NCBI GenBank assembly: GCA_018806915.1
Contig: JAGKQI010000086.1
Location: 558,001 to 622,000, forward strand
From: Phytophthora colocasiae
Taxonomy: Eukaryota; Oomycota; Peronosporomycetes; Peronosporales; Peronosporaceae
Length of the DNA stretch: 64,000 nucleotides
Direction of reading: 5' to 3'
Shown in pieces: positions 2,355-49,687 of this stretch (its first letter is position 1; each line of letters starts with the position of its first letter). The position numbers were made by a program, and so were the translations under genes. Below the pieces are notes generated by a model, which worked only from the letters and a program-made list of their open reading frames with translations, was not told where the DNA came from and did not search any database.

Positions 2355-2376
2355 GTACTCCATCAGGGAACAGAAA

Positions 2377-23145: not shown

Positions 23146-24924
23146 ATGAAAGGTGTGACTCCGTTCGACTCGGTTCTCGTTTCATCGGATCAATCTCGTC
23201 GCTTTGAACGCAAAATTCAGCAACTTCTGGATGAAACTTTACGTGAATTCGACACTCACGACTCCCTCTGTAAGAGCAACAAGAACCCGTTGCAGGACAA
23301 ATGGCAGTGGAAACCTTTGAAGACGCATGAAGGTCTCAGCGTCTTCAAAGAGCGACAACCGACACATCCAGAATTGAATCCATTCGCCTCTCGAACTCCA
23401 AAGACATCAACAGATTCCTCTTCCTCATCTTCCGACAAACCGACAACAGCAGTGGCGATGGCTGCGTACACCCCTGAAATGGCAATGGTCATGTGCAATG
23501 CGGCTGCTCCCGGGTCTTCCTCAGTCGCTTCGACTGTCGTCACAGGTCACGTTAATGGAAGTCTCAGTGACGTCCTGTATGGTCTTTTAGCACTTGATAC
23601 AGCTGATCTACAGCTCCAGTTACGGTACATGACGGACGCAGAGGTACTGGATTCGACAATGCTCAGTTGTATTCAACCGCCTACTGCTACAGACCCGTTC
23701 CGGTTCGTTGGTCTTCAGTGGATCGTTCGCGGTGAATCGTCTCGAGTGAAAGCGAGTGGCAAACGACCACGTGATTTCGTGTTACTGGTAGCGTCGGGTG
23801 TTGTTCAGCATAAAAATCAGGAGATCGGCTACTACTTGTGTCAATCGGTGGAGCTACAAGAGTGTGGAGAACTGGAGCTGCAAGGTCTCACTAGGGGGTG
23901 GCTCTCGACCTGTTCGTTGTTTACGGAGGTTAATGGCACTTCACAGGTTAACGTTTTCTCAAGGGGTTTTGCGGACTTTAAGGGCAAGTTACAGGACTAC
24001 CAGGCTGCGAATATGATGACGACGTTGGTGCTGAACGGCCTGGCAGACGCTGCTACGTGTGGACAAAGCAAGAAGTTGAACTGGTTGTTGCATTTCAAAG
24101 GAGCTGCAGCGGAATTTCGGCGTCTGCATCCTCAATCGGCGTCTTCTGGAAGTCGCTGCGGCATTTGCGAGCGGAAGTTCGGGGTACTGCACAGTGTTGC
24201 AGCCTGTAACCTGTGCCAGGTGAACATGTGCTCGAGATGCCGTGTTAGTCGTGAGTTGAGCTTCGTAAAGCGAAGAGATCCAGTCGCCAACGGTTTAAAC
24301 TGGGAAGAAGGTCAAGCTGGTGGTCAAGTGCGTTCCATGACGGTTGTTCTCTGTAAGAACTGCAAGATGAACGCCAACCACATGGACGCGAAGACCATGG
24401 CAAGTAGAGAAGTCCAAGGTGGCTCTGGAGCTCAAGAGATGGTGGCTCTTGTTGCCGTTCCGACACCTGTACAAGCCAAACAGAGTCACTCGAGTGAGAC
24501 CAAGATGAGCTTCTGGACTCCAGACTCAGCTAAACAACAGACTCTTGTCGCTTGGACGCCAGGGACCGATAAACAGGACACAGTGAAGAACAAAGCGATG
24601 GACAGTGGCAGGTCGAAGCTCGAGTCTTCTGTCAGTTCGTTTGCCTCAACGTTACCGTCACCACGGGACCAGGACAGTCAGGAAGACTCAAGCTTCGAAC
24701 TGACTCCGTATCAACCTCAATACGTTCGAGAAGATCCTGAAATCTCGTACACTTACACAGGTAACAATGGGACCCAAGCAGATCTTGTACGGAGGATGCA
24801 GGAGCTGCAGATGAAGTCCGAGTCTGTGTACAAGTTCACGAGTCAAATGAACGCCAACACGAGGTTCAGACACCAGCAGTTCGAGGCTCCAGCCACCAGA
24901 ACGTCCATTTCAGAGCTGGATTAG
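23146..24924 (+). CDS. START-like/FYVE-type zinc-finger protein
   Basis: The protein has 592 aa from ATG 23146. Layout is that of the large oomycete family with an N-terminal helical region, a START-like lipid-binding region (about 110-330, including DPFRFVGLQWIV and RPRDFVLLVASGVV) and a FYVE-related zinc finger. The cysteines are CGICERKFGVL, ACNLCQVNMCSRC and CKNC. The canonical RR/KHHCR basic patch is missing, so binding to phosphatidylinositol 3-phosphate is doubtful. The C-terminal third is Ser/Gln-rich. Its stop codon overlaps the stop of the convergent secreted-protein gene. A 62-bp tract at 23331-23392 also occurs in the MFS fragments at 3564-3625 and 7422-7483. Confidence 0.75.
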   Translation: MKGVTPFDSVLVSSDQSRRFERKIQQLLDETLREFDTHDSLCKSNKNPLQDKWQWKPLKTHEGLSVFKERQPTHPELNPFASRTPKTSTDSSSSSSDKPTTAVAMAAYTPEMAMVMCNAAAPGSSSVASTVVTGHVNGSLSDVLYGLLALDTADLQLQLRYMTDAEVLDSTMLSCIQPPTATDPFRFVGLQWIVRGESSRVKASGKRPRDFVLLVASGVVQHKNQEIGYYLCQSVELQECGELELQGLTRGWLSTCSLFTEVNGTSQVNVFSRGFADFKGKLQDYQAANMMTTLVLNGLADAATCGQSKKLNWLLHFKGAAAEFRRLHPQSASSGSRCGICERKFGVLHSVAACNLCQVNMCSRCRVSRELSFVKRRDPVANGLNWEEGQAGGQVRSMTVVLCKNCKMNANHMDAKTMASREVQGGSGAQEMVALVAVPTPVQAKQSHSSETKMSFWTPDSAKQQTLVAWTPGTDKQDTVKNKAMDSGRSKLESSVSSFASTLPSPRDQDSQEDSSFELTPYQPQYVREDPEISYTYTGNNGTQADLVRRMQELQMKSESVYKFTSQMNANTRFRHQQFEAPATRTSISELD

Positions 24925-25144
24925 TCGTTTTTACGTCGGTATTTCTCTAAAAATTGTCGAAAGTAGTCTCGAATCTTGTCACCCGTTGGTTGGTACCTCA
25001 TGTTGACTTTGGCAATAGCCAACCACCCGTACTTCCCTTGTAGTTCTCTTGAAGGTGGTACATTGTTGACACGGAGACGTTGCATGGGCTTCGAGTCAGC
25101 AGACGTCACGAAAGTTAATAACACGAGGAGAAGAAAACCCTTAA
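24921..25144 (-). pseudogene. RXLR-like secreted protein gene, 3' part (split by piggyBac)
   Basis: Reading leftward from the TTAA at 25144, the frame gives a strongly hydrophobic segment (GFLLLVLLTFV), a predicted cleavage near TSADS, a degenerate RXLR-like motif QRLR, and a basic C-terminus ending at TAA 24921. No start codon lies in this piece. The missing start is on the other side of the transposon at 49687-49665, in the same frame once a single TTAA is kept. The intact gene would encode about 80 aa with a signal peptide. It is now inactivated unless an allele lacks the insert. Its stop overlaps the START/FYVE gene. Confidence 0.7.
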
Positions 25145-25495
25145 CCCTTGTAACGCCGGCCCTTATTCTGTATAATACAGAAGAGAGAGTTGTCTTGAGT
25201 AAACTATTGACAGAGGATTGCAACACTTTATCTGTTTCAAGCCCTTCCCAGGGCGACGTGACGAAAACGTTGCGAAATCGAGGCACAGACGCGACGAATG
25301 TTACCATAAAAGTATCATTTTTCCCATCAGCTGTCAGTTTTGAGCGCTGCTATTGGCTGCTACGTATCAGACATACCTCCTGCAGTTGATTCCCCCGTCG
25401 ATTGCGATCGTCGCTTCACGGGGGAGCTGCACGTGGCGCACTCACATTCACGAAAAGTTGGTAAGCAGCATGCATGGAATTAATTTGCTTTGGTG
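25145..25495. other. piggyBac 3'-terminal non-coding region
   Basis: Lies between the left terminus and the transposase stop codon at 25496. It holds the terminal palindrome at 25163-25182 and otherwise no gene. Confidence 0.5.
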
Positions 25496-27628
25496 CTAAT
25501 CGCTATCTCCTTGGTCCAAGTAGTCGACATCGTGCTCCTCCTCGTCATCGGCCCCGTCACTCTCGACGTCTTCGTGCTTACGCTTTCTGTAGCGGATGTT
25601 CTTTCTCAAATGCGCTGGAATAAGCGAGCCGCACCCCCACACTGTGTGCCAGATCTGGCTGCAAGTGAGAGTATTACCAGTGTCTTCTCGGCGCACCTTC
25701 GCGCAGAGCGGCACGTAGCCACCACGAAGCAGCTCACAAGACGGGCAGTAGAAACTGCTTTCAAAGCTTTTCGTGTTCGGTTCAGCCAGAGCAGAGCACA
25801 CCTTGCAGGAGTGCTGCCGGCGTTTGCGTCTGTACTTGTTGGTGTTGTTACAGAGGCGGTGTTTTCCTGCGGGTATCGGAACGGAGACCAGCTCTTCAGC
25901 GTTCATGTTGGCCTCAAGGTCGCCGCGCTCACCCCCATAAGCTCACGATGCAATCTCCGCATGTACTCGGCGTGCGTGGGTACTTGGTGTCCGCTCTGCT
26001 TCATCACAAGCTTGTGGATAATAAAGCCGTTCACAATGGCCATATCCACAAACCCCAGAAAAAGCTGGCGATAATACTTCTTGAAGGCGACACACTGTTG
26101 CAGCGAGTAGCTTTGCAGTCGTAGCTGGTCATGAGTGTCTACCCCACCCATCCCAGCGTGATAATCAGCAACTAGTTGGGGCAAGGCACTTTCTCCAGAG
26201 CTCCGGTGGCTTTGTTCCGCCTAGTGACCGACGTTGAGATAGTTAAGCAGCCAATTGATATCATGTGCACTGGTGAAGAGTCCATCCACGCCAACGCTAC
26301 AAGCTCGGGGTGATCAACATCTTGGGCAATCTTGTAGGTCCCGCGTGGCATGTACGCCGGGCGCTTCTTTGCTTGAATTCAAGAGATTTCGGCCATCCGA
26401 GACGGTCGTTCCGGTGGGTGCCGACATAGTAGAAGCCCATATCCCGAAGACGGAGTGCCAAAGCACAGGAAGAGTAGAAGTTGTCGGCGATAATAAGTCT
26501 TCTTCTTGGCTGCCCGTCGAAAGTCTTGGCCAAGTTTCGAATAACAGCCTTCTGCGCCACACCTTTAGCTTTCTTCTTGTCCTTCGTCTTACCCAAGTAC
26601 ACCTCTACTCTGTACAATACAGAATACGATAAGCAGTTAGCAACTTACTCTGTACGATACTGAGCATAATAGAAAAGCAGGAAACAGCTTATTCTGTACA
26701 AGCCAGAATTGCCTATTCTGTGTGAATTTCAAAGCTCGCTCACCTTGAACAGTAACCCGTCTCAGCGCAACACGTCATATAGCATTTCGTGCCGTACTTG
26801 TGCGGCTTATCTTTGTTGTAGACTCGAATCGGATTGAACTGGCTGCGGTTAGGAATTGTGCCTTCATCAAAGCTTACACGCGCACCCAAGCGATAACCGC
26901 GCCGAAACGTTTTCTCCAATGCTTGAAGAATTGGACGGACTTTCCACGCCTTGTCGTGTGAAGCCGCCGCACCTGTTGAGTTACTTGCAAAATGAAGGTA
27001 CCTTGTGATGATACGGAAGCGTTCACGTTTCATGTAGCGACTGAATGTTCCTCGGGGAACAGCTCCATCCTCGCGAGTTGACCAATGCTTCTCTAACCCG
27101 TCCGTGTGACTGCAGAGTGTCCTCGCAGCCAGAAGGCCAATGACATGTAGAATCTCGTGCGGCTTGATAGGCTTCACACGTTCCAGCTTGAGCTTAATTT
27201 CAGTAAGGGGCTGAACCGTCTTCGATGGGTCCTTCGCTTGTGCTTCGAGCTGCTTCATGCGTATCTTCTCGGCTGCACCTGGAATGCACTCCTGGCGGTA
27301 CGCGTCACTCTCGCTTGCAATGTGCACCCACAGCGCCTTTGGAAGGAAGTAAAAATACATTCCTAGCGGTGACTTCGCGAATGCAGCTGCCGATTTCGTG
27401 ACACCATACGACCCACTGTAGAGATCAGTGGCGCCACTCAACTGTAATTCATCTGCATCCCATACAATACAGAGTTAAATTATACCGCCAACACTATTCT
27501 GTATAAGACAGCTTTACCACTTCTGTGTTGGTCGAATATGCGCCACCGCAGACGTCTCATGGCATCGTCGTCTTGTGCAAACGCGTCACTATCGTCTTCG
27601 AAATCGTCGTCAGACTCCACTTCGCTCT
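25496..27628 (-). pseudogene. piggyBac transposase, 3' exons
   Basis: Continues the gene whose 5' part is at 48560-49450. The acidic segment joins through an intron (donor GTAAAG near 27518, acceptor near 27453) to the catalytic domain. The three acidic catalytic positions are visible: RVSFDEGTIP, LIIADNFYSS and MGGVDTHDQ. The C-terminal zinc-binding region has CKVC, CPSC and LC...C. A second intron (about 26746-26615) ends in TTGTACAG. Two single-base frameshifts, near 26375 and at the CCCC run near 26178, break the frame between the second and third catalytic blocks. Either the copy is dead or these are sequence errors. It would have catalysed cut-and-paste at TTAA. Confidence 0.75.
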
Positions 27629-29427
27629 TGTGGTGAAGTGGATTCAAATCAAGCCGGACAGGACGCAGAACGACCACGATGATGGGTGACGTGCGACAGT
27701 GGTGCTACGATAAGGACAGATCCCTGGAACTGGTACCTACTCTAGGGCGGACCCTAAGTTAGGATCCACTTGGCCTGGCTGACTTAAGTTCGGATCCCAC
27801 AGTCCTAAGTGCGGATCCTTCAGACCCAAGATCCTCGGATCCGGACGTCGAGATCCAGATTCAAGATCCTCGGCTCCCGAAGCCGGATCCCCAAGATCCG
27901 AGATCCTCGGATCCTGAAGCCGGATCCCCACGATCCAGATGCCAGAGATCCAGATCCAAGATCCTCGGATCCTGAAGCCGGATCCCCAAGATCCAAGATC
28001 CAGAGATCCAGATCCAAGATCCTCGGATCCTGAAGCCGGATCCCCAAGATCCAAGATCCAGAGATCCAGATCCAAGATCCCCAAGATCCAAGATCCTCGG
28101 ATCCAAATGCCAGAGATCCAGATCCAAGATCCTCGGATCCTGAAGCCGGATCCCCAAGATCCAAGATCCAGAGATCCAGATCCAAGATCCTCGGATCCTG
28201 AAGCCGGATCCCTAAGATCCAAGATCCAGAGATCCAGATCCAAGATCCCCACATCCAGATGCCAGAGATCCAGATCCAAGATCCTCGGATCCAGATGCCA
28301 GAGATCCAGATCTAAGACCCTCGGATCCAGATGGCAGAGATCCAGATCCAAGATCCTCGGATCCTGAAGCCGGATCCCCAAGATCCAAGATCCAGAGATC
28401 CAGATCCAAGATCCCCAAGATCCAAGATCCTCGGATCCAGATGCCAGAGATCCAGATCCAAGATCCTCGGATCCTGAAGCCGGATCCCCAAGATCCAAGA
28501 TCCAGAGATCCAGATCCAAGATCCTCAAGATCCAAGATCCTCGGATCCAGATGCCAGAGATCCAGATCCAAGATCCTCGGATCCTGAAGCCGGATCCCCA
28601 AGATCCAGAGATCCAGATCCAAGATCCCCAAGATCCAAGATCCAGAGATCCTGAAGCCGGATCCTCGGATCCCGAAGCTAGATCCTCGGATCCAAACCCG
28701 GATCCTCAAGGTTTATGACATCAACGTGGTGAAGCAGTTGGAAGAGAGCCAGCATGATCTAAGATAGAGATTTGCGATGAGAAAGATAGGGTACAGGATG
28801 AGAAACTGGATAGCCATAAATCAGAGAGTCGAATTTACCTTCTAGTGCGCAAGTGGTTTCCTTCAGGACCTAAGACAAGGGAAGAGGATAGTGTATTGGC
28901 CTCCCCTTAGTCTTCCTGCAAGTTTCTTCGCCTACCTAGCTACAGCTAAGACCGGATCCCTGATTTGGCCGGCTTACCTTACGCTAGTGAAGACCCCGGA
29001 TCCAACGGTGTTGATTGCTTAACCGCAGGATCCCTCGACCTCTCAACACCCTCAAGACCAACCGCTACAGGAGGCGGCAAGCAAGACAGTAAAGGAAAGG
29101 AAAGGAACCCCACAGCCACCAAGGCAACCCCGGATCTAAGGATCCACAAGATCTTCGAGTCCAAGACCAAGATCCCCCCAACCAGGACCTGTGTGCAGGA
29201 ATACCCACGCAAGTCCAACCTCCCAAGTCCCCGCCAAGGACGTTCAAGCCCTCACGCCTGTGTACAGTCTCCCGTTCCTGAGAGAGCAGATCCCGCCCAC
29301 TGACGGGTACACAAGGTGAGCCTCAGCAACCCCACGGTTATCGGAGTACCCCCTCCGTTAGTCAGTGTCTGGGCGCCGTGTGTGAACGTTGGATCCCTGC
29401 TCATTCCAGCGGATCCACTACACCACA
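27629..29427 (+). repeat. 5' LTR of gypsy element A
   Basis: Direct repeat of 46796-48559. It begins TGTGGTGAAG and ends CCACA. It is 1799 bp here and 1764 bp at the 3' copy; the difference lies in the internal GATCC array. Outside the array the two are nearly identical, with only scattered substitutions seen, so the insertion is fairly recent. The flanking CTCT (27625-27628 and 48560-48563) is the target duplication. Confidence 0.9.
27830..28715. repeat. GATCC tandem array in the 5' LTR of element A
   Basis: Built from AGATCC, AAGATCC and GGATCC words arranged in a higher-order unit of about 58 bp (with TCGGATCCTGAAGCCGGATCCCC as the marker segment), repeated about a dozen times with deletions. 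The matching array in the 3' LTR is at 46997-47843. All six frames are mostly open because the unit contains few stops. Confidence 0.9.
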
Positions 29428-31332
29428 ATGGTGCGCGTGCCCGGATCTTTTGGGGACGGCGGATATCACCGTGAGTCCGAAGAGACTGTACAAGTGAAGG
29501 AAGAACCGGGAGAAGAAGTGCCGACGGTCGTTGGATCGCCGTCAGCACCGCTGAACGCTAGATCCACGGATCGACGGAGCCCTGGGAGGAGCTCTGTCGA
29601 CAGGAAGGAGGCGAGTCTGGCAACAGACTCGGAAGAAAAACCTCCCCCTCCTCCCCAGGTCCCTTCGGGGACCCCCGCGGATCGGAACGCGAGTTCTGAT
29701 CCGCCGGGTGGGGATTCAGCGGCGAAAGCTGTTGGATCTTCATCCACCACCACCACCGCGCAGATCTCAGGTGGTAAAACGTCGAAGAAGAAGACGAAGA
29801 CTGCGCGGAAGAAGCTGAGGGCACCAGGATCTGATGTCGACGAGAAGCCGGTGGTGAAATCGGAGTGGTCGTCGACCCAGCTGGAGGCTTCGTATCGCCG
29901 GATCGCGCTCGAGGACTTCCTCCGGGAAGACCCTGTGATGAGGATCCTACAACCCCAGTTGGTTGGATCCCTCACCGGCCCGATCGCGGCACCGGCTCAG
30001 TCTACGAACAGTTTGGACTGCGCTTTGGATCTCCTACGCCTGCTCGAGGAAGCGGGTTTTGCTGCGGGTGCTTTCGACGGAGATACCCTTTTCCGCTTAG
30101 ATCACGACAGGATCCGTATCGCAGCGGCCTCGCTCTTCAGCCGACTGAAGCCCCTCGTCGGTGAGCGACGAGTGATCCGAGATCCGATGTCCAAACTGGC
30201 GCAGTCCCCAGAGTACCAGACAGGATCCTCGCGATACGCTTCGGCGGAGTCCGAAGCAGGATCCGACAGCTCGTCGGAACCCCGACGTATGGCACTCGGC
30301 CCTACAGGTGCTGCGACGTTGGCAGCCCGTATGCCAACTGATGTCCCGGATGCCAAGCCAGCGCGAACGCGGGACACCTCGCGTGATCAACCCCGTGCCA
30401 TGGATCCGCCGCATGCATCCACCAAGGGACTGCAAGCCTACTTCCAATCAGCCATGGACAAATTCTTGAAGGAGCGGCAGATGACTACGGTCCCAAGAGC
30501 CACGACGCGCGCTTCGGATCCTGTATATCGGGACGTCGAGATGGAGTCAGTAGGATCACACCCCGAGAACTGGGAGTATGACCCTGACGACCTTGACGGA
30601 TTGGCTCTCCGGCGTACGGCGACGACCACTGCTGCACCCGTTACGGCAGGATCCAGCACGATTCAACGGATCCGGATTTCTGCGATATCGGACCTGAAGG
30701 AGTTCACGGGCAAGGAGCACGACGAGGAACGAGCAAGATCTTGGATTAGTAAAGTCAAGTCAGCCTTCACGAGAGATCAAGCATCGGACGAAGAAAAGTG
30801 CCTTACCTTCGGAGATCTCCTCACAGGTCCAGCGCGAAACTGGTACAGACAACTCAGTCGATCCACAAGGCTGAAGTGGAGTGATCTGCTGAAAGCCTTC
30901 CAGACGCAGTACTGCGGCCTAGGAGTCTCGGTGGCGTGGCAATACTACCACGCCCGCAAGAGATCCGATGAGTCGCCACTGGAATACCTGTACCGGTTGA
31001 ACGTAGCAGGTCTTCGTGCGAGAGTGATGATCAAGGATGGAGATGCCAAAGCTCGCCGCGAGCACGTCGAACACTTCATCGAGACGCTCGGGGATGCGGA
31101 TCTGGCAGACCAACTGACATTACTCCGACTTGCGGACGCGGATCAACTCGAAGACGTACTGCGGGCCCGAGATCGCGCGAGATCCAGACAGAAGAAGCCG
31201 TCGTCGGGATCCAGCAAGTTCCGGCCGAAGACCACGACGGCCCCGCAGCCAACCGGTCCAACGCGTGCGATCCGTTCCATGCAAGTTGTAGAATCGGAGG
31301 GTCCGACTCCGAGGACTCGGATCCGACGGTGA
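29428..31332 (+). CDS. Gag polyprotein of element A
   Basis: The ATG at 29428 lies immediately after the LTR and gives 634 aa. The N-terminus is disordered, Ser/Pro/Lys-rich. The retrotransposon gag (capsid) domain spans about residues 410-585, with FTGKEHDEERARSWISKVK, then LLTGPARNWYRQL and FQTQYCGLGVSVAWQ. The frame stops at 31332, before the zinc knuckles. GATC sites fall in many codons without breaking the frame. Confidence 0.8.
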   Translation: MVRVPGSFGDGGYHRESEETVQVKEEPGEEVPTVVGSPSAPLNARSTDRRSPGRSSVDRKEASLATDSEEKPPPPPQVPSGTPADRNASSDPPGGDSAAKAVGSSSTTTTAQISGGKTSKKKTKTARKKLRAPGSDVDEKPVVKSEWSSTQLEASYRRIALEDFLREDPVMRILQPQLVGSLTGPIAAPAQSTNSLDCALDLLRLLEEAGFAAGAFDGDTLFRLDHDRIRIAAASLFSRLKPLVGERRVIRDPMSKLAQSPEYQTGSSRYASAESEAGSDSSSEPRRMALGPTGAATLAARMPTDVPDAKPARTRDTSRDQPRAMDPPHASTKGLQAYFQSAMDKFLKERQMTTVPRATTRASDPVYRDVEMESVGSHPENWEYDPDDLDGLALRRTATTTAAPVTAGSSTIQRIRISAISDLKEFTGKEHDEERARSWISKVKSAFTRDQASDEEKCLTFGDLLTGPARNWYRQLSRSTRLKWSDLLKAFQTQYCGLGVSVAWQYYHARKRSDESPLEYLYRLNVAGLRARVMIKDGDAKARREHVEHFIETLGDADLADQLTLLRLADADQLEDVLRARDRARSRQKKPSSGSSKFRPKTTTAPQPTGPTRAIRSMQVVESEGPTPRTRIRR

Positions 31333-31746
31333 GCTTCTGCAGAGCATACGTAGCAGCTTCGAGTGAAAGACCGATTACCCCGACGACAGCCGGATCGACA
31401 GAGACCAAGACAGGAACTTCGGATCCTAAGAAGGATCCGGATCCAACCAAGCCAGCTCGGATCCAGTGCCACAAGATCGTCGACCACGTTTCTCCAACGA
31501 AGGACAGCGCTGCTCGCACTGCGGATCCAGGAAACATTCGGATCTTGGCTGCTGGAAGCGTCTCACCTGCCAGAAGTGCGGCAAGAGGGTCATCCGTCGG
31601 ATCGCTGCTTCTTCGTATGTCGCGGCTGCGGAGAACTTCACGATCACGGCAAGTGCCAGATGGAGGAGTTCTACAACCTCATCCGACAGTGGTTCGATCC
31701 AAGTAAGCACATGCTTCCAGAAGCTGCCGAGAAGATGTTAAACTAG
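31333..31746 (+). pseudogene. Gag zinc-knuckle region of element A, frameshifted
   Basis: Three frames each hold part of the nucleocapsid: one with a Thr/Pro-rich linker, one with CSHCGSRKHSDLGCWKRLTCQKCGKR (about 31503-31590), one with FVCRGCGELHDHGKCQMEE up to a stop at 31746. At least two frameshifts are needed to join them to gag. Either the region is decayed or the assembly has indels here. Confidence 0.65.
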
Positions 31747-31760
31747 AACGCTCGCCGGGT

Positions 31761-33101
31761 TTGAATCCGGTACGAGACGAGCGTTCAACGTCTTACATCT
31801 ATGCATATGTGAACAAGAAGGCCATGGATCAAGTTAGCAACAAGCGAACGGATCTATTGGATAATACATGTGAACTTCATGGGAAACGTACGGCTAGAGT
31901 TGCAAGCTTCCGCTCTACAGACGATGAATACCAGAGATCCGAGATCGCCATGTCCTTGGATCTCATGCCCGGAGAGTCACGCGGGTACTGGAAGTACCAT
32001 GTCCCCAGCAAACACTTCAAGCAGGCCAAGGCAACGTGCAAGATCAACAATGCCAAGTCCACCGTGCTTCTTGACTCGGGATCCGAGGTGTCGATCATCG
32101 ATGCCGCCTTTGCTCGTAAGGTTGGATCCCAGATCGACACTAGTCAAACACAAGAATGCCTCGGAATTGGTGAGCAGCTGTACATTGCAGCAGGCAAAAC
32201 AAGGATCAAGGTTACCTTGGCTGGATACTTGGTATACTTCTGCGATGTCTGGGTCGGCGAGGATCTTCCACCCGACTGCGACGCGATCCTCGGTATGGAC
32301 TTCATGGTACCAGCCGGGATCCGACTCGACTTGGGCGACGGATCCGTGTGCTTGCATGACGAGATCCGTGTGCGCCTCCATGGACGACGGCAGATCTTCA
32401 GCGGCCGGGCCCGCCCGCTACTCCTCCAGGAAGGCATACGGCTGGAACCCGGCGAGATCTTCGAGCATCCGGATCGGATCCATCTCAAGGAGTACGAGAA
32501 GCTGTGGCTACGCAGAGGCAAGCAATGGGTACCAACGTTAGCTCAAGGTCAGGCAAGATCCGCTATCTACAACTTACCAATGTCGGTGAAAGCGGTCTCC
32601 CTCAACCACAATGAGGAGATCGGCATGTGGCTGGCCGGGGATCACGTTCCTCGCACCCCGGGCTTCATTTCCGTCGGATCCCGGCGCTACAACGAGTGGC
32701 AGAACCTTTGCCGCCCAGGCGCCACGACGGAGATCCCGCCGCCACCGCGCCCGAAGGAGCCTTGGGAGATTGAGCCGGCGGTGGATCGGCCGAAGTACGC
32801 AGAGCCGAGAGGGATCCTGAAGCGCCCTGTCCACACCGCTGTCGTGTCACGCTGCCCCGGCTCGCCACCTACGTCGGACCGGATCGCGGAAGGAACGGTC
32901 GACTGGCGAGACAGGATCCAGTCCGACGGATCCGATCCGACGACGTCTAGGCTCCAAGCGCACCGCCGTGTCCGATTTGGACCAGAGGCCGCAAAGGATG
33001 CTGCGCCAGACTCGTCCGGATCGAGGGGCGTCCTCACACGCCCGGATCCGAGATCCACAGGCTCAAGGATCCTCCGGATCCTCTTCAGCTTGTCTGATTG
33101 A
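31761..33101 (+). CDS. Protease region of element A
   Basis: The 446-codon frame includes an aspartic protease core with LLDSGSEVSIID (about 32070-32105) and the later block AILGMDFMVPAGI, typical of retropepsins in gypsy elements. The C-terminal part is Pro/Arg-rich. It overlaps the pol frame at 32968-33101, which lies in the +1 frame. Programmed +1 frameshifting or decay would both explain this. Confidence 0.75.
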   Translation: MNPVRDERSTSYIYAYVNKKAMDQVSNKRTDLLDNTCELHGKRTARVASFRSTDDEYQRSEIAMSLDLMPGESRGYWKYHVPSKHFKQAKATCKINNAKSTVLLDSGSEVSIIDAAFARKVGSQIDTSQTQECLGIGEQLYIAAGKTRIKVTLAGYLVYFCDVWVGEDLPPDCDAILGMDFMVPAGIRLDLGDGSVCLHDEIRVRLHGRRQIFSGRARPLLLQEGIRLEPGEIFEHPDRIHLKEYEKLWLRRGKQWVPTLAQGQARSAIYNLPMSVKAVSLNHNEEIGMWLAGDHVPRTPGFISVGSRRYNEWQNLCRPGATTEIPPPPRPKEPWEIEPAVDRPKYAEPRGILKRPVHTAVVSRCPGSPPTSDRIAEGTVDWRDRIQSDGSDPTTSRLQAHRRVRFGPEAAKDAAPDSSGSRGVLTRPDPRSTGSRILRILFSLSD

Positions 33102-38075: not shown

Positions 38076-38092
38076 CCCTCCCCCACCAAACC
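38076..38092 (-). promoter_or_regulatory. Polypurine tract of element B
   Basis: Minus strand GGTTTGGTGGGGGAGGG directly precedes the 3' LTR. This is the expected primer for plus-strand DNA synthesis and fixes the element's orientation. Confidence 0.8.
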
Positions 38093-38513: not shown

Positions 38514-39401
38514 ATGCCCATGCGTCTCCTGCTCCCTGCGAGCCCTCGGACGCCCCGATCTGAGCTGCGCTCTCCACGCGATCCGCGTCGGTACTCAATT
38601 CCTCGGCAGCTGCGGCAGCCCAATCCGTTCCCGGAGGGACCTTCGAGCCTCGTGCTCAACGCGTTGCGCAACGCACCACCGCTTCCTGCTCGCGATGAGC
38701 CAGAGTCACTCAAGGGAGTCGAAGACGCGATCACCAACCCTCTGGATGAGGCACAGGAGGCTTCCCTGAGCGGTGCTCCAGAGTCACGTCGACCGGTCCA
38801 ACGGGACATCGTGGGGACTTCGTCGCGGCGCGACTACGGCTTCGAGCCTCGCGACCCTGCCGAGCAGGTGAAGCAGTTGATGGCGCAGCCAAACCTGCAT
38901 GGTTACGCCATAGGCAATCCTCCACGTACGGTGGCTGAGACTCAGCAGCGACAGGGGCTCCATGAGCGTTTCCTGACCCCGCAGGTGTGCACACTCGCCG
39001 AGTATCGGCAACGCTTAGATAAGCAACGGCGACGGGAGTCTGTGCCTCAGATGAGGACTTATCCACTCCTGCTCCAAACCGGAGAGACCACCCGGGACTA
39101 CATGGTCCATGTGGCCACCTGGGCCGAGGCTTCACGGAAGCTCGCGTCGTTTGACCGGCTCATGGAGAGCTGCGCCGAGGTGGACGTCCGCCTCGCCCGA
39201 GGTCTACTCTTCCAGTACGCGAAGATACGCGTGCGGCCCGGCCGCTTTCCTCGTCACACGACGGCAGTGGCTCCCGCCTCTCAGGCCACTATCCCTGCTT
39301 CGCAGGATGCTCCTTCAGTCTCCGAGGGAGACTCGCTGGCTGTGCCAGCCACGGATCAGAGCCTGAGCTCGGCTGCTGAATCCGTCAGCTTCTCACACTA
39401 G
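38514..39401 (+). CDS. Antisense accessory ORF of element B
   Basis: The 295-codon frame lies opposite to gag-pol, between the chromodomain and the 3' LTR. A second open frame from about 38150 to 38510 (Ser/Pro/Glu-rich) may be its N-terminal part, separated by one frameshift. The C-terminal half looks like a folded domain: TTRDYMVHVATWAEASRKL then CAEVDVRLARGLLFQYAKI. I do not recognise a family. Some plant Tat/Grande gypsy elements carry antisense ORFs in the same place (general knowledge), but no homology is claimed. No typical core promoter was identified. Confidence 0.45.
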   Translation: MPMRLLLPASPRTPRSELRSPRDPRRYSIPRQLRQPNPFPEGPSSLVLNALRNAPPLPARDEPESLKGVEDAITNPLDEAQEASLSGAPESRRPVQRDIVGTSSRRDYGFEPRDPAEQVKQLMAQPNLHGYAIGNPPRTVAETQQRQGLHERFLTPQVCTLAEYRQRLDKQRRRESVPQMRTYPLLLQTGETTRDYMVHVATWAEASRKLASFDRLMESCAEVDVRLARGLLFQYAKIRVRPGRFPRHTTAVAPASQATIPASQDAPSVSEGDSLAVPATDQSLSSAAESVSFSH

Positions 39402-41470
39402 TGGTGAGAAGCGGGTGTCGACCGAGTGGTCGACCTCGAGCCCTTCGGGCGCCCCCGATCTTCGCGATCAAAAGCGTCCACGACGTCAGGGCAGTCCTGC
39501 CTCAGGGACCCTTCAAACTCCCACGAGTTTTGGGAATGAGGATATCCACGCCACTTCACCAGATACTGGTTTTGACTACGGTGGCGACGCCGCGCCATCA
39601 GGCGCTCCACGTGGTAGTGGGGAGTCCCCTGCTCATCGAGCAACGGCGGAGGAGGCCGATTCGCTGCGGAACGCCGTACTCGATGAGTGTGACGAGCGCT
39701 ATTTGTCGCATCGCGCCTGGTACCAACTCGATCACTCGATCGGTACTCTCCGGAGTCAGACTCCAGTCCCTTCAAGGGAACGTCGAGAGTGTTTGGCATT
39801 CGCATGCCCGTCTCGCTCATGACATGGAGGAGATTGAAAGCCGGATGAAGCTTGGCTCGAAGGTCCTCAGTCCCTGACTGCTCGCCTGCACCAGCAGGAG
39901 CTTCAGCTCGCTGAGTTGCGAGGTCAGGTGACGTTGCTGCTGCAGATGACGCAGCCTGGGCACGTGTCGTCGGTGCCAGCGCCTCCGCGCTCACCCCGCG
40001 GGGTCCCGATATGGCTTAAGCAAGCCGACGTAGAACACCGGGTGTGTTCGCATCCGCTTTGGCAAGTCAAGCGTGTATGCCAGGCCCTTCTTGGCCACGA
40101 CCGTAAATGGTCCGATGAAACGCGGACGCAATTTCGTCTTAAAGACATTTGACACTGCATGTGTAGGTAGGTTCTTAGCGTTTAATAAAACCTGGTCACC
40201 GACCTTAAATTCCCATACATTGCTTCTACCTTTTGTATCCGCTTGTTCCTTCTGAACGTCTTGGCTTTCAGCCATCCCGTCACGTACACGGCGTAATACG
40301 CTCAATCTCACCGAGAGGAAGTCATCGACTTGTTTACGCACAGCAGAAGGGCTGATATCAGCAAGCTCGGAGTCGAGCGACGGCACAGCCTCTCCCCCAC
40401 CAAGCCCAAGGCTACCGCGTGGCGGAGTGAGCGGAACGCGCGGGTGCGCAAGGCCGTTCACGTAGAACGGGGTGAAGCCTGTCGAGGCATGCACCGCATT
40501 GTTCATGGAGAACTCAACGAGAGGAGCATAGCGCTCCAACGCTTCGGCGTTTCAGCGCATACGCTGCGGAGGATGTCCTCCAGAACGCGGTTCACGCGTT
40601 CGGTCTGACCGTCGGTCTGCGGATGGTCCGCCGTGGACATGTCCAGTCGAGTGCCCAGCACCTTGAAGACGGACGTCCAGAAGTGACCCGTGAAACGGGG
40701 ATCTCGATCCGAGACAATGGTCTCAGGCAGCCCATGCTGGCGGAAGACCCGATCGATGAAGATCGTCGCTGTACCAGCACCATCGACGGTGTCCGGCACA
40801 GCCGCCATAGATGAGCCATCTTGCTCAGACGGTCAACAAAGACCACCACGCCCGTGTTGCCTGCCGAGTCCTTCGGCAGGCCAAACACAAAGTCCATACT
40901 TATGGACTGCCAACACCCAGAGGGTACAGGTAAGCTCGCCAGAGGCGCAGCCGCATGCGGCGAGGGTTTAACCCGCTGACACGTCTCGCACGTGCGCACA
41001 TATGTGCTGACCCACTTGTACATCTTCGGCCACCAGTACATGGAGCTCACCGAGCCGTACGTCTTCTCGCGACCGAGGTGGCCGCCTGTGGGTGTGTCGT
41101 GAGCCTCATAGAGGATACGGTACTTCAGATCCTCATCGTGAGGAACTACCACTCTTGGTGGGTCATCCTGACCCGTGCTGTAGTACAGCAGACCGCCTTC
41201 CAGGCTGTAGCGTTGGAGTCTCGCCTTTAGGCGTCGTGACAGAGTCACCTTTGAGTCTTTAAACTCATCGCTCCCCAGAGCTTGGAGCAACGCGACACAA
41301 GAGTCGTCCTGAGCGTACGCTGCTCGAACCATGTCCGTCACGGACGACGTCACCGAGGTGACATGAGATAACTCATAGTCCGGGCGACGTGATAACGCGT
41401 CAGCGAGGACGTTCTGCCTGCCAGGCTTGTACTTCACCTCGAAGTTATACTCCGCAAGAAGGAGAGCCAT
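39398..41470 (-). pseudogene. Integrase and chromodomain of element B (frameshifted)
   Basis: Read leftward from 41470: the end of RNase H (ADALSRR), then the integrase zinc finger (DTPTGGHLGREKTYGSV...CETCQRVKP) and catalytic core (SMDFVFGLPKD), a frameshift near 40800, RFTGHFWTSVFKVLG and HPQTDGQTERVNR at 40503-40808, then another frame with the C-terminal integrase part (39991-40539). The last frame ends in a chromodomain: YHVERLMARRRHRSQNQYLVKW at about 39590-39530. At least three frameshifts are present. Chromodomains direct integration to marked chromatin in chromoviruses. Confidence 0.8.
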
Positions 41471-44066
41471 CGGGCCATCCTCTGCGAGAGGTGAGGCGAC
41501 TGCGTCGCTGTGCGTAGTGACGCATGATCCGTGTAGATCACAAACGGCTTGGAGCCGAGCAGGTGAACCCTGAATTTGACGAGAGCGTACTTCATCGCAA
41601 GTAGCTCCTTGTCATGAACTGGATAGTTCTTCTCAGCAGCCTTGAGCTGTCGCGACTCAAACGCAATGACGCGTTCGCGCCCTTCGGCGTCCGCTTGTAG
41701 CAAAGCACTGCCGATGGCAAAGTCCGAGGCGTCGCAGACGACAATAAACGGACGAGCGGGGTCTGGCAGCGCCAGTATCGGTGCCTGAAGCAGGCTATCC
41801 TTGATACAAGTGAACGCATTCTCGTGCTCGGCACGCCATACCCACTCGGCATCCTTCTTAAGGAGATCCGTCAGTGGCCGAGCCAACTCAGCGTAGTTCT
41901 CGCTGTACTTGTGCAAGTAGTTGGCCAAACCCAGCCACTTACGCAAGTCCTTCTGGTTCAAGGAACCGGCAATCCACAATGGCCTTGACCTTTGCTGGAT
42001 CAGCACGAAGGCCATGCTTCCCAATGAAGCACCCTAGGAAGGGGATTTCTTCCGCGCCAAAGACGCACTTGTCTGCGTTGGCGTACAGCTTGTTCGTGCG
42101 CATGCACTCGAGCACAGCTCTCACGTGTTCCACGTGCACCTCAACGTCAGTCTTGCCGTGTTCGGCCTGACTGTGGACGAACACGTCGTCAAAGTACGTT
42201 TGTGCGAATGCCCGTAGGGGCCTGAACAGCTGCGTCACTAGACGATTGAACGTTGCGGGCGCGTTCGAGAGCCCTTGGGCATGACGAGCCACTCCCAGAG
42301 CATACCGCTCGGGGTGCTCACCGCTGTAAGCGGAATATCACTGGCTCGCATGAGCAGCTGATAGTACCCATCGACTAAGTCGAGTGCACTGTACATGGTG
42401 CAACCCACCATGTTGTTCTGAAGAACATCCTTCCTAGGAATCGGCGTCTGCGCCGGAGATCGTGGCAGTGTTGAGCTTGTTAAAAGCGTGAACGATACGC
42501 CACTTGCCATTCGGCTTTCTGACACAGAACGTTGGCGCGGAATGCGGAGACTTGCTCTCGCGCACGAGACCCGCCGCGTGCTTCGCACGGAAGAAGGCGT
42601 CAATGACGTCGCATTGCTCTTTAGGAAGAGGCCACTGTCGGGTCACGCAGTACTTAGTTCCGGGAACTAAGTCGATCTCATGACGAACGCCTCGGTCGGG
42701 AGGCAGGCCACTCGGTGGTTCCTTCGAGACAACGTCTCCATATTCCTTCAGCAAGGAGTGGAAGGGATCCGAGGGATTCTTGAGGATCTCCGATCCACTC
42801 CTGGCGTTCAACGCCTTCTTGACTTCGGCCAAGACGGACTCGTCAACAAGGGACGACGAGTTTAACTCCTCCTCAGGTCGAACGATGACCACCTCGGCGA
42901 ATTCGCCAGCCTTCAAGGCATCGCCAAAGTCGGCGAAGGACATCTCTTCTAGTTCAAGGAGCTTGTCAACACTTGGCAAGTCGTCCAGCAGGACACTGCC
43001 TTCGGCACTACCGCCCACTCCATCAACCAGAGTGTATAGCTGCCCACAGCCCTCCGGTGCGTCGGCGCTTGACGTCACGGATGACTCAGACGCAGAGCGT
43101 CTCGCCCGAAGGGCCTTACGACGTCTTCGCCTGGCCGAAGATCGTCTACTCGACGGAGTACGTGCCGTCGCACAAGTTTCGGCCTCTCGGCCCAGTGTCA
43201 GGGACACTCAGCGATCCACTCGGTCGACGACCGATGTCGCTCAGCGGAGTACGTGCCGCTGCACAATCAATGACCGTAACAGGTCCAGTGTCAGAGACAC
43301 TCAGCGATCGACTTGGTCACGACCAGTATCACTCGACGGAGTACGTGCCGCCCCACAGTTCACGGCCTGGTAAGGCCCGATGCCATCGGCATCCAGTGAC
43401 AGTCCATGACCGGCGTCACTCGGGTTACGTGAGCTTTGCCCACACGTTGACTCACTGCCAACCAGCGCTATGCGCTCCAACAGAACTGCGATCCTCGCAC
43501 TCGGTGCTGTCCACTAACTCGGACACACCGACTTCCAGCATCATTGCCGACTCGGCTCGATGCTCGCGCCAATAGCGCTTCTGCTTCCTAGCAGAGGTGG
43601 GTTCATGACTCGCCAAAGCTCCACTAGGAGAGAAGTGCGTAGCACCTAAGGTCTTCGACCTCCAGTCGATCCATGGCTCGTGGCGCTCCAGCCACGCCAT
43701 ACCAAGGATGAGGTCGTACCTCGAATCCAGGTCAAGGACCAAGCGGCGTTCTACGCTATCGAAGTCCAGGAACTTCAGCCGTAGGTCCATGGGGACCTTG
43801 GCCACAGTGACACGGACGCCCGTCGCTAGACGGACAGTGACGGTGTCACCTCTTCGCGCTCGAAGCGCCTCAGCATATTGCTGACTACCCTCAACGGTGG
43901 AGCGTCTGACGTAGTTGCCAGACGCTCCTGAATCGATCAACACGATCCACGGCTTCTCGAAGCCCTTCACGTCCACATGGACGACCAGCAAGCCCTGCTT
44001 GCTCATACGTTCCGTGTTCAAGAGCACGGAGCTCTTCGGGGCTGAGCCCCAGTGCCTCTCACGCAC
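41434..44066 (-). pseudogene. Protease, reverse transcriptase and RNase H of element B (frameshifted)
   Basis: Protease: frame 43452-44066 with IVLIDSGASGNYV and DLILGMAWL. RT: frames 42434-43207 (PHSAPTFCVRKPNGKWRIV), 42238-42603 and 41939-42292 (active site YFDDVFVHS). RNase H: frame 41434-42024 with complete catalytic pattern (CDASDFAIG, HDKELLAMKYAL, YTDHASLR). Each junction needs a frameshift, so the copy is not autonomous even though its LTRs are almost identical. Confidence 0.8.
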
Positions 44067-44104
44067 TGCAGAACTCAGTTCTTCCCCAGTAGACCGCCCC
44101 GCGT

Positions 44105-45081
44105 CTACTGGGAGCCGTCGTTTCCCTGGGCAGAGCCCAAAGCGGGACCCGCGACAGGGTTGCGGCCATTCTGGCCGGCGCGCTCTTTGCGCAGAGGGCA
44201 GTTGGGCCTCAGGTGTGTGGGACTACCACACGTGTAGCACCGACGAGTGCTCATACGCTGCACCGCAGCTCGTAGCTCGGCTACTTCATCTTCAGCATAG
44301 CTGAGGTCCATGGGTTCGGGTCCCCGGACCCTGTGCTATTAGCACCGACCCTCGACAACTTAAAGTTGTGTTCAGCATTCAATGCCACGCTAACAGCGTC
44401 CTCGAAGGTGCGAGGATTCTGACGGAATGCCTCCGTCCTGGCCACGCCAGCTCTCAGACCTTCCATGAAGATAGTCACAGTGACCACCTCAGGTAGAGGA
44501 TCGGCAGCCATGCCGGCAATGAGCGTGCGCAGCTCTTGGACATAGTCCACCAGGTCCTTCTTGCCCTGTCGGCAAGCGAGGAAGCGTGACCGCACGCGAT
44601 ACGCCTGGTTAGGTGGAGCAAATACTTGCGTAAGTTTGGCCTTAAGCTCACCCCAGAGTGGGGAAGGCCATTTCTACCGACGTCCCAGACGTCAAGGCCC
44701 ATTCTCGTGCTCGACCTTCGAGCTTAGAGATGGCGAACGCCACGCGTTGGCCTTCCAACTGGAGCATAGCGGCCCCCATGGCCATCTCGACCTCTCGGGT
44801 CCACAATAGGAGGTTCTCTCCTTCGTGCCCGTGAAAGGTCTTCACGCTGAGCGTGACGGGCTTAGCTCTCGGAGCGGGATTAACTCCTTTTACATTCCGC
44901 TGAATGTGCTCAACGAGAGCGTTCTCGTACGAGGCAAATGCCTCAGGCGCGCGTTGACGGCCTCCGGCCCTTGAGACGCAAGGTGCGCCATACCTTCAGG
45001 GCCCAGCAAGGACGTAAGCTTGTTAAGCGTGTCCCGCTGACTCGGAGTCAAGTGAGCGTATGCTTCTGGCTCCATTCTCAC
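44105..45081 (-). pseudogene. Gag of element B (frameshifted)
   Basis: Pieces in order on the minus strand: MRMEPEAYAHLTPSQRDTLN (start 45081), [20 protein letters not shown] (44648-44845), RSRFLACRQGKKDLVDYVQE (44281-44595), and a CCHC zinc knuckle CYTCGSPTHLRPNC (44105-44311). The capsid pattern (W-x2-E, then a YVQEL helix) is typical of chromovirus gag. Several frameshifts separate the pieces. Confidence 0.75.
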
Positions 45082-45115
45082 AGAGAAACAGTCTTCAACT
45101 CAGGAGTTGGATTGA

Positions 45116-45130
45116 CTACAAGTGCTACCA
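45116..45130 (-). promoter_or_regulatory. tRNA primer-binding site of element B
   Basis: Minus strand TGGTAGCACTTGTAG begins two bases after the 5' LTR. It starts TGG, as expected for pairing with a tRNA CCA end. Which tRNA is not determined. Confidence 0.65.
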
Positions 45131-45132
45131 GA

Positions 45133-45544
45133 TGCAGCGGGGCTGCGTAGGTGTGCACGGCACAGAGGAAGTTGGGTTGACTCGTAGAGTCCTGCTTGCA
45201 AGGCACTAGCCTTCGGTTCTATACAAGAACCAAGTAGTCCACTAAATACTGGACTCTCACAATCAGTGTCCCTATAATAAAGGAACTAACACTAATTATG
45301 TAAAATGCAAACTGATTTTTATTTATTTTATTGCCCTAATCCTGAATGTAACGGATTTAGTATCTAACATACTAAATCCTAATCAAATGTAATGTGTGGC
45401 TCTGAGCTAACAGCCAGCAACTGGCTACATATGTGACGTGTGAGAAACACTATGTGTTGTACACGGATCTGTGACTTGTGACCTGGATGGTGTATACCAC
45501 ACCTATTGTAGCCAAGGCGCGCAGCGCCGTGTAACCCCGTTACA
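45133..45544 (-). repeat. 5' LTR of gypsy element B
   Basis: 412 bp, near-identical partner of 37664-38075. On the minus strand this is the upstream LTR and should hold the element's promoter. Confidence 0.92.
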
Positions 45545-46418
45545 CTGGAGGTATAAGATCCAGCGACACTACCAACTGGCCAGGGCTGAGGTGAATGACC
45601 GCCTGAAGCAGGCGATCTCGGATCGTGCCGACCGGCAGAACGAGATGGCGACGCAGCACCCCATCGAGGCCGGATCCCAAGTGTGGCTGTTCTTAGACAG
45701 AGTGAAGGAGGGATACGCCAAGAAACTGGCTCACCTGTGGCATGGACCGTTCCGTGCGGCGGAAATGACGAACGAGTATGCAGCCCGCCTGGAGATCGCC
45801 GGTACTGACTACCAGTTGTTCCCGGTGGTGCACATCTCCAAGTTGAAGCCAGTCAAGACATTTCCGGATCGACCGAAGATCCAGTTGACGGTGGACGAGA
45901 CGGATCGTCTAGATTTTGACGAAGCCTTATTACCAGAAGACAGCTGGGATCGGGATCTGGAAGACGGCGAGTTCGAGGTTGAACAGATCGTGGATGTCAG
46001 GACGGGACGACCCACGCGATATGGCCGGATCCGGCGAGAATTCCAAGTTTTCTGGAAAGGGTACGAGGATCCTACCTGGGTAGATGAAGCAGATCTGAAC
46101 TGCGGCGCGTTACTGCATGAATTCCTCCAAGAACGAAGCAAAAGAACCGGTTCCAAGCGATGCAGTCGCTTTACGAAGAAGAGTAGGCGACGGGGTAGAT
46201 CTTCACTGGTGAGGGCGCTCGTCAGTGTGGAGAAGAGAAGACTGGCAGTTTACTGCGAGTGGACGCGATGTATGTTTGTATATGAAGAAAAGAAGACCGA
46301 TTTCTGGAGAGGGCTGGAAAGCAGGATCAGAACCTACGCTCGGATCCCGTCTAGAGCTCGACTTTGGGACGAATTTTCTACCTGGATCCTCGGGGCTCAT
46401 AATGGGATATGTCTCTGA
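45545..46418 (+). pseudogene. Pol of element A, C-terminal part (integrase end and chromodomain)
   Basis: This continues the integrase frame after element B. With one CTGGA kept, the codons on both sides stay in phase. It contains the integrase C-terminal (GPY/F-like) segment (AHLWHGPFRAAEMTNEYAAR, VVHISKLKPV) and a chromodomain (RREFQVFWKGYEDPTWVDEA, about 46030-46100). It ends at a stop at 46418. The ATG-led frame from 45471 is an artefact because it starts inside the LTR. Confidence 0.8.
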
Positions 46419-46795
46419 GTTGGATCTACGGATCCCGAGGCTGGATCCTCGGATCCTCGAAGCGGATCCATTTTGGAAGTTGGATCTCCGGATCCCGAGG
46501 CCGGATCCTCGATTTTGGAAGTTGGATCTCCGGATCCCGAGGCCGGACCCTCGGATCCTCGATTTTGGAAGTTGGATCTCGAAATGCGTCTTAGCAAAAC
46601 TGAAGATGGGGACATGGAGGTTGAGCCGCAGAGCGATCCTGACCGAAGAACACCGTGGCGTACGCGGAGGAACTGGTGTCGGCAGACCGATCCATTTGCA
46701 GAGGTCGCGATTTGAGGAATGACGAGCCAAATTGGAATTTTGTATGGGAACGACGTGATGCCGTTGTGCGGCAACAACCTCGTCCCAGGGGCGAT
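46419..46795 (+). other. 3' untranslated region of element A with ~41-bp repeats
   Basis: Non-coding sequence between pol and the 3' LTR. About 2.5-3 copies of TTGGAAGTTGGATCTCCGGATCCCGAGGCCGGA-type units lie at 46469-46580, again rich in GATCC. The polypurine tract is weak (CCCAGGGGCGAT just before the LTR). Confidence 0.6.
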
Positions 46796-48559
46796 TGTGG
46801 TGAAGTGGATTCAAATCAAGCCGGACAGGACGCAGAACGACCACGATGATGGGTGACGTGCGACAGTGGTGCTACGATAAGGACAGATCCCTGGAACTGG
46901 TACCTACTCTAGGGCGGACCCTAAGTTAGGATCCACTTGGCCTGGCTGACTTAAGTTCGGATCCCACAGTCCTAAGTGCGGATCCTTCAGACCCAAGATC
47001 CTCGGATCCGGACGTCGAGATCCAGATTCAAGATCCTCGGCTCCCGAAGCCGGATCCCCAAGATCCGAGATCCTCGGATCCTGAAGCCGGATCCCCACGA
47101 TCCAGATGCCAGAGATCCAGATCCAAGATCCTCGGATCCTGAAGCCGGATCCCCAAGATCCAAGATCCAGAGATCCAGATCCAAGATCCTCGGATCCTGA
47201 AGCCGGATCCCCAAGATCCAAGATCCAGAGATCCAGATCCAAGATCCCCAAGATCCAAGATCCTCGGATCCAAATGCCAGAGATCCAGATCCAAGATCCT
47301 CGGATCCTGAAGCCGGATCCCTAAGATCCAAGATCCAGAGATCCAGATCCAAGATCCCCACATCCAGATGCCAGAGATCCAGATCCAAGATCCTCGGATC
47401 CTGAAGCCGGATCCCCAAGATCCAAGATCCAGAGATCCAGATCTAAGACCCTCGGATCCAGATGGCAGAGATCCAGATCCAAGATCCTCGGATCCTGAAG
47501 CCGGATCCCCAAGATCCAAGATCCAGAGATCCAGATCCAAGATCCCCAAGATCCAAGATCCTCGGATCCAGATGCCAGAGATCCAGATCCAAGATCCTCG
47601 GATCCTGAAGCCGGATCCCCAAGATCCAAGATCCAGAGATCCAGATCCAAGATCCTCAAGATCCAAGATCCTCGGATCCAGATGCCAGAGATCCAGATCC
47701 AAGATCCTCGGATCCTGAAGCCGGATCTCCAAGATCCAGAGATCCAGATCCAAGATCCCCAAGATCCAAGATCCAGAGATCCTGAAGCCGGATCCTCGGA
47801 TCCCGAAGCTAGATCCTCGGATCCAAACCCGGATCCTCAAGGTTTATGACATCAACGTGGTGAAGCAGTTGGAAGAGAGCCAGCATGATCTAAGATAGAG
47901 ATTTGCGATGGGAAAGATAGGGTACAGGATGAGAAACTGGATAGCCATAAATCAGAGAGTCGAATTTACCTTCTAGTGCGCAAGTGGTTTCCTTCAGGAC
48001 CTAAGACAAGGGAAGAGGATAGTGTATTGGCCTCCCCTTAGTCTTCCTGCAAGTTTCTTCGCCTACCTAGCTACAGCTAAGACCGGATCCCTGATTTGGC
48101 CGGCTTACCTTACGCTAGTGAAGACCCCGGATCCAACGGTGTTGATTGCTTAACCGCAGGATCCCTCGACCTCTCAACACCCTCAAGACCAACCGCTACA
48201 GGAGGCGGCAAGCAAGACAGTAAAGGAAAGGAAAAGGAACCCCACAGCCACCAAGGCAACCCCGGATCTAAGGATCCACAAGATCTTCGAGTCCAAGACC
48301 AAGATCCCCCCAACCAGGACCTGTGTGCAGGAATACCCACGCAAGTCCAACCTCCCAAGTCCCCGCCAAGGACGTTCAAGCCCTCACGCCTGTGTACAGT
48401 CTCCCGTTCCTGAGAGAGCAGATCCCGCCCACTGACGGGTACACAAGGTGAGCCTCAGCAACCCCACGGTTATCGGAGTACCCCCTCCGTTAGTCAGTGT
48501 CTGGGCGCCGTGTGTGAACGTTGGATCCCTGCTCATTCCAGCGGATCCACTACACCACA
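46796..48559 (+). repeat. 3' LTR of gypsy element A
   Basis: 1764 bp, matching 27629-29427, with a GATCC array at 46997-47843 that is about 35 bp shorter. It ends in CCACA, followed by the CTCT target duplication. Confidence 0.9.
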
Positions 48560-49450
48560 CTCTCGTACTCAACAGGAGCCACAGGCACACCCAACGCTTC
48601 GCCATTTTCATCAGCATCTTCGTCTTCATCATCTTCCTCACCGGCAGCACACAAATTTATATCGTCTGGGGCAACAGGGCCAAACAGGCGCTCCGACCGC
48701 AGTGCCTCCATGAAGTGGTCTGTGTCAAAGATGTCAATATCACCCTCACCACCTTCGTCACTCATCATCTCTTCGTCTTCATCTGGAACCTCAGTGATCT
48801 CGTTTGCCTGCGCAACATGTTCTGTACATTACCGATTAGCCAATTCTGTATCAACCGGAATACATTATTCTGTACCAAACGGAATAACAAATTCTGCGCC
48901 TTCTCACCTGACTGAGTTCTGATCCCCGCGGAAGCAGGCACAGCTTCCAGTGATGCCGATTCAGGGGGAGCTGGTACTAGCCGCCCTTGGTGCTGAGATG
49001 GTCTTATCGCGGCTTGCGACTGATCTACAGTGACTGGCTGTGTTGGGTTGACGACAGTAGATGAAGCAGCAACAGGTAGTTCGAGTTCTAGGAGTCCTGA
49101 GCGCATTGCAAACGCTACTAGCTCATTCTCTCCTAAACAGCACGTATACATTAGATCAGTGAGCTTCTAGACGGCACATAATAAAACGTACCAACGAAGT
49201 GGCTTTCGCCCCGTTTGGAAGCGTCAAGTCGTCCGGTTACTCCAGGTTTCACATACGTGAAGTCCACGCTCAGGTCCCTCGGCTTCCTCGCCTTCCACCC
49301 TGCCTTTGACAGCCTACGCCAGAGCGCCTTGAACATCTTCGCGTCGGGTACGTCCATCTTAGAGATGCTGTCTCGCAGGCGGGAAAATCTTGAATGGCTG
49401 AGGTCGAATTGGGGGGAGATTAGTTGCGAAACGTGAGCTCCAAATAGCAT
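48560..49450 (-). pseudogene. piggyBac transposase, 5' exons
   Basis: Exon 1 starts at ATG 49450 and encodes an N-terminal DNA-binding-like region (LWRRLSKAGWKARKP, DFTYVKPGV) found in oomycete piggyBac-like proteins. It splices at GTACGT near 49188 to GAGAATGAG near 49134 (acceptor TTTAG). Exon 2 ends at TCAG/GTGAGA near 48906. Exon 3 resumes after TGTACAG near 48824 with an acidic segment that runs to the element A insertion at 48563. With one copy of CTCT the frame continues at 27628. Splice sites were read by eye. Confidence 0.7.
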
Positions 49451-49664
49451 TATTCAGACCTCTACCGAGCTTATATCGTATTTTCTATACTGCTAAGGAA
49501 ATCCCCGTCTATCTTCCCAGCACAGATCGGGTATGATGAGCTTCCCCAAACCTCCATCTTACAAACCTTCATATGCGAAGAAAACTAGCGCTTCGAAGCT
49601 CTCAGAATATTTTTACTTGCAATAATACTTATTCTGTATAATACAGAATACGGCGTTACATGTG

Positions 49665-49687
49665 TTAACGACACTGAAGAACGTCAT
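49665..49687 (-). pseudogene. RXLR-like secreted protein gene, 5' part (start codon)
   Basis: The ATG at 49687-49685 is followed by six codons and then the piggyBac TTAA. The frame continues into 25140-24921. An initiator box (TTCATTCCC, minus strand, 49698-49706) lies 11 bp upstream of the ATG. This strongly suggests that this is a real gene start rather than chance. Confidence 0.7.

Follow-up and report, generated by a model that had tools for sequence, protein, structure and literature searches.

A piggyBac element bearing two nested Gypsy retrotransposons within a small putative gene of Phytophthora colocasiae

A three-level nest of transposons

We analysed a 64,000-nucleotide stretch of the oomycete Phytophthora colocasiae (hereafter the window; G000:C97:558001-622000), in which three transposons lie one inside another. 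A piggyBac element separates the two pieces of a small candidate open reading frame (ORF), a Gypsy retrotransposon, A, lies within the piggyBac transposase gene, and a second Gypsy retrotransposon, B, lies within A (Table 1). This nest is real: target duplications are present at all three levels (TTAA, CTCT and CTGGA, respectively), and uninterrupted relatives, in which the target is single, were found for levels two and three. The best explanation of the locus as a whole, to which we assign a probability of about 0.8, is that piggyBac would have inserted into the start of a small ORF, followed by A and then by B. All genome searches were performed against the organism's own assembly (92.5 Mb, 105 contigs).

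The outermost element carries TTAA at 25141-25144 and 49665-49668, matching terminal repeats and a transposase domain, PF13843 (DDE_Tnp_1_7; E about 2e-25; window piece plus two pieces of the copy on C48). These three features are shared with Phytophthora piggyBac elements, from which the window copy differs in being broken by a 21-kb nest. Eight other full copies, of ∼3.5-4.1 kb, were fetched from the assembly and all had TTAA at both ends; at a ninth place, C81, only the left end was visible within the stretch fetched. A 20-nt palindrome near the piggyBac ends occurred 25 times genome-wide, related families included, as compared to once for its reversed control. The window copy and the C48 copy differed at 2 of 3498 aligned bases, with three gaps (counted from 25240 on). 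Because these copies are near-identical, the piggyBac insertion is probably recent. For the final exon piece of the C48 transposase, the best database match was a P. palmivora protein (75% identity). Near its left end, the C48 copy (L049) also bears its own 482-bp insert, which has inverted ends (L049 386-869). Published work is cited here and below from excerpts; piggyBac and Gypsy are both listed in PMC3522703.

Gypsy element A is inserted within exon 3 of the piggyBac transposase. Its long terminal repeats (LTRs; 27629-29427 and 46796-48559) have the ends TGTGGTG/CACCACA and contain internal tandem repeats. Matches to protease, reverse transcriptase (RT), RNase H, an integrase zinc domain and a chromodomain were above the Pfam cut-off, and those to gag and the integrase core were below it. 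Assignment to Ty3/Gypsy rests on RT and RNase H preceding integrase (zinc domain above the cut-off, core below it), on the TG...CA ends of the LTRs and on the short target duplication. Element A shares LTRs, domain order and the chromodomain with Ty3/Gypsy chromodomain retrotransposons; B shares LTRs, the chromodomain and the order of those domains that were detected in it, and its assignment is provisional. The comparison was made at the level of the superfamily. A is set apart by its long LTRs, which reach about 1.8 kb and contain the tandem repeats. The CTCT that is double in the window is single at this site in the relatives. Seven of the eight piggyBac copies were uninterrupted at the A site, with 0-3 mismatches over 40 nt, and the eighth (L050) was locally altered, with 14 mismatches across the site in 40 nt.

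Gypsy element B, with LTRs at 37664-38075 and 45133-45544, sits in the pol gene of A on the opposite strand. In separate ORFs it encodes, in order, a protease, RNase H, an integrase zinc domain, SH3 and a chromodomain; neither RT nor the integrase core turned up in the scanned ORFs, which covered part of B. The element is abundant, its LTR yielding 1063 first-look candidates, 40 of which were scored. In the nine copies of A examined among 39 other places scored, CTGGA was single and the B site was uninterrupted over 60 nt (0 mismatches in eight copies and 1 in the ninth). An earlier note on this DNA, made from the sequence alone, had B splitting the integrase of A. Element B is indeed inside pol, but it lies 3′ of the integrase core match, itself below the cut-off, and 5′ of the chromodomain. 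The same note held that the host frame is continuous at all three junctions. For the inner two this was borne out: at the A site, the transposase frame of the C48 copy runs on without a stop, as does the pol frame at the B site of the A copy L056 (an 898-codon ORF within the locus), the one copy in which it was checked. At the host junction, continuity was judged from coordinates only.

It is very improbable that the nest is an artefact of assembly. Repeats are difficult to assemble, and in four of the eight piggyBac copies (L046, L047, L051, L052) gap positions outnumbered mismatches against the left part of the window, which may reflect sequencing error in repeats. Against an artefact stand three exact target duplications, clean empty sites in relatives, and flanks that each occur at a single place, both on one 941-kb contig.

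Table 1. Features of the nested locus, in window positions.
Feature	Positions	Strand	Basis or remark
Left piece of small ORF (3′ part)	24921..25140	-	stop codon 24921-24923; single place in own genome; no homologue found
piggyBac element including both TTAA copies	25141..49668	-	transposase on minus strand; TTAA, terminal repeats, domain
Transposase intron 4	26610..26743	-	delimited by hand; end-motif copies
Transposase intron 3	27442..27517	-	delimited by hand; end-motif copies
CTCT target duplication of A, left	27625..27628		
Gypsy element A	27629..48559	+	domains, LTRs, target duplication
CTGGA target duplication of B, left	37659..37663		
Gypsy element B	37664..45544	-	LTRs of 412 nt, target duplication, domains in separate ORFs
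CTGGA target duplication of B, right	45545..45549		
CTCT target duplication of A, right	48560..48563		
Transposase intron 2	48808..48907	-	delimited by hand; near-identical C48 copy has three end-motif copies 24 bp apart
Right piece of small ORF	49669..49687	-	start codon followed by five codons and one base; 19 nt; single place in own genome
Initiator-like heptamer	49699..49705	-	11 nt before start codon; chance rate from 78 matches in the 128 kb scanned

Order of insertion and LTR divergence

The order of events, piggyBac, A and then B, follows from the nesting alone, and the relative chronology proposed earlier is thus well supported. In the first step, a recently active piggyBac element would have moved by cut-and-paste into a TTAA just past the start codon of the small ORF, in the gap separating a FYVE-type gene from a lipoxygenase gene. 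Gypsy element A would then have integrated into the transposase gene of piggyBac, at exon 3, and Gypsy element B would have followed, entering A within pol. Several observations weigh against parts of this account, two of them bearing on the insertions and the remainder, given below, on the small gene. The first is that an allele with an empty host site was sought in the own assembly and not found. No second haplotype or paralogue with such a site was detected, the left flank, the right flank, the lipoxygenase gene and a kinase gene each having one full-length match in the assembly. With each flank at a single place in the own genome, level one is without the proof by empty sites available for the two inner levels.

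The second concerns the LTRs, whose comparison had been proposed as a check of the order. It did not provide confirmation: B, which is the inner and necessarily younger element, has the more diverged LTRs and looks too diverged for the youngest element of the nest (p 0.01 to 0.09 by the comparison chosen). In their unique parts the LTRs of A differed at 1 of 917 positions (11 of 1762, plus 10 gap events, when the tandem repeats were counted), as compared to 3 of 412 positions for those of B (Fisher p 0.09). Relative to the piggyBac copy, the changes in B exceeded expectation with a p of 0.01 to 0.05, depending on the exposure assumed. Chance, reverse-transcription errors or sequencing error could explain the excess. 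We rejected the dating of A versus B by their LTRs as uninformative.

We also considered whether the differences between the LTRs of B are old family variants, using ten loci including the window; five of these (L067, L069, L071, L073, L074) were out of register and were dropped. The four readable relatives (L066, L068, L070, L072) agreed with each other at the three sites, and all three differences were private to the window copy. On these four relatives, the idea of old variants was rejected.

The interrupted ORF

The left piece of the small ORF (24924-25130, minus strand) encodes 69 residues that begin with a hydrophobic run. By coordinates, the two pieces share one frame: 19 nt separate the start of the start codon at 49687 from TTAA and 10 nt separate TTAA from the frame of the left piece, such that 19 + 4 + 10 = 33, which is divisible by 3, a match expected by coincidence one time in three. 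The codon score of the left piece was the best among its six frames, and an initiator-like heptamer lies just upstream of the start codon. We consider it somewhat probable that the ORF is a real secreted-protein gene now cut from its start.

Several observations count against that gene. The codon score exceeds only 21% of those of stretches from three training genes, and 26% of 1180 equal-length stop-free stretches of the window, which include real genes and transposon frames, score at least as high. The stop codon of the ORF (minus strand) overlaps that of the FYVE-type gene (plus strand) at 24921-24924, where the FYVE end is conserved. The heptamer before the displaced start codon, offered earlier as support for a real gene, speaks partly for and partly against one. 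It is present, and its 78 matches over both strands of the 64-kb window correspond to about 0.08 expected by chance per 125 nt. Its A, which we take to be the transcription start, implies a 16-nt leader. This falls below the range of 32-144 nt (median 50) given for 121 P. infestans genes in the excerpt of PMC3599244. In the lipoxygenase gene, a heptamer of this kind stands 38 nt upstream of the start.

Searches for relatives of the ORF were negative within their reach. No paralogue was found in the own assembly at E 0.01, and the left piece matched nothing in Pfam (E 10) or in the PDB (E 1). A protein database search, which reaches only relatives sharing several exact 5-residue words, found no homologue; the database does include close relatives, to judge by the 98% match of the adjacent FYVE protein to P. 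citrophthora, but a gene of about 80 codons that had escaped annotation, or one with few exact words in common, would be missed.

The alternative, that the ORF is not a gene and that piggyBac hit an intergenic TTAA, the frame, hydrophobic run and initiator-like box being coincidental, is a serious one, if somewhat less probable in our judgement than a real gene. It is favoured by the lack of a paralogue, homologue or family, by a codon score inside the range of other stop-free stretches, by the short implied leader and by the overlapping stops. It requires, however, that frame, hydrophobic run and box all coincide, and the limited reach of the homologue search lessens the force of the missing relatives. 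Small secreted proteins of oomycetes, moreover, frequently have no distant homologues and tend to be overlooked in annotation.

The earlier description of the locus as the natural knock-out of an RXLR-like effector has not been borne out. The motif in the left piece is QRLR, not RXLR, and an EER or dEER motif is absent from its 69 residues; the searches yielded neither a paralogue nor a homologue nor a family, and the codon usage does not stand out. That the ORF encodes a translocated effector of the RXLR type is a guess, and an improbable one. One likeness is to the QXLR proteins of downy mildews: in the excerpt of PMC4594904, QxLR proteins of Plasmopara halstedii lack a predicted dEER. The small ORF differs from these in having no homology found and in that its secretion and translocation are putative. 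A transposon inside a possible secreted-protein gene also recalls transposon-broken avirulence genes such as Fusarium AVR1 (PMC3428301, excerpt), from which the locus differs in that the insert is itself nested and the host gene putative. According to an excerpt of PMC12774592, RXLR genes of P. theobromicola lie near transposable elements. It is, however, quite unlikely that the insertion represents the adaptive loss of an effector recognised by a host plant, as nothing at the locus points to effector activity, recognition, frequency or selection.

End motifs in the transposase introns

The motif ATTCTGTAY is one half of the palindrome near each piggyBac end. Allowing up to one mismatch, the C48 copy contained 14 matches, as compared to 0-3 in 30 shuffles. 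Four of these lie in the end palindromes; the remaining ten fall in introns 2, 3 and 4, a single one spanning an intron edge. The introns, which are those of the transposase and not of ordinary genes, were set by hand from GT-AG boundaries and open frames, without RNA. In four families, represented by one copy each (L049, L024, L027, L030), introns held 28 matches in 983 bp and exons held 6 in 8580 bp, three of the six straddling the 3′ end of an intron. The motif is thus ∼40 times as dense in the hand-delimited introns as in the exons of these related families; the counts are not independent, as the families share ancestry, and three of the four loci are incomplete, so that of their introns only 3 and 4 entered the count. 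Over the remaining 60,403 bp of the window there were 22 matches. Among families about 64-68% identical in DNA, the motif stays intronic while its positions and spacing shift.

These counts raise the tentative possibility that the piggyBac families of this genome carry arrays of their own end motif in the transposase introns. By binding such sites within its gene, the transposase may hold down its own expression; alternatively, element ends may be the origin of the introns. Besides the limits on the counts given above, two observations speak against this proposal: intron 1 has no motif match, and in the second family the counterpart of intron 2 is an open frame containing two matches, each with one mismatch. 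In literature searches on oomycete piggyBac introns, intron-borne transposase sites and introners, no listed title or opening of an abstract described the intron motif. The words oomycete and Phytophthora are absent from the excerpted main text of PMC9860276.

Neighbouring genes

To the left of the nest lies the gene for a FYVE-type protein that is 98% identical to a P. citrophthora protein and 84% identical to one of P. capsici. Seven of the 30 homologues found were compared, and their last three residues are identical. The left flank (24500-25144), into which the end of this gene extends, had one full-length match in the assembly. To the right lies the lipoxygenase gene (PF00305), which had one full-length match and two short matches of 70%. 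Elsewhere in the window, 262-10154 holds tandem near-identical copies (mostly 96-99%) of a large minus-strand gene, and the Crinkler N-terminal domain PF20147 was present in two of three ORFs scanned.

Discussion

The nest is a well-formed case of a known kind: between two ordinary genes, the locus cleanly records three transpositions, one after the other. Close relatives are predicted to have the TTAA site empty. Ranking by LTR divergence, as the locus also shows, can fail for young nested elements. Should the small ORF prove real, one more naturally broken secreted-protein gene would be added to those known. The intron motif may be more novel than the nest itself: if functional, it could represent an unusual self-regulation by a DNA transposon.
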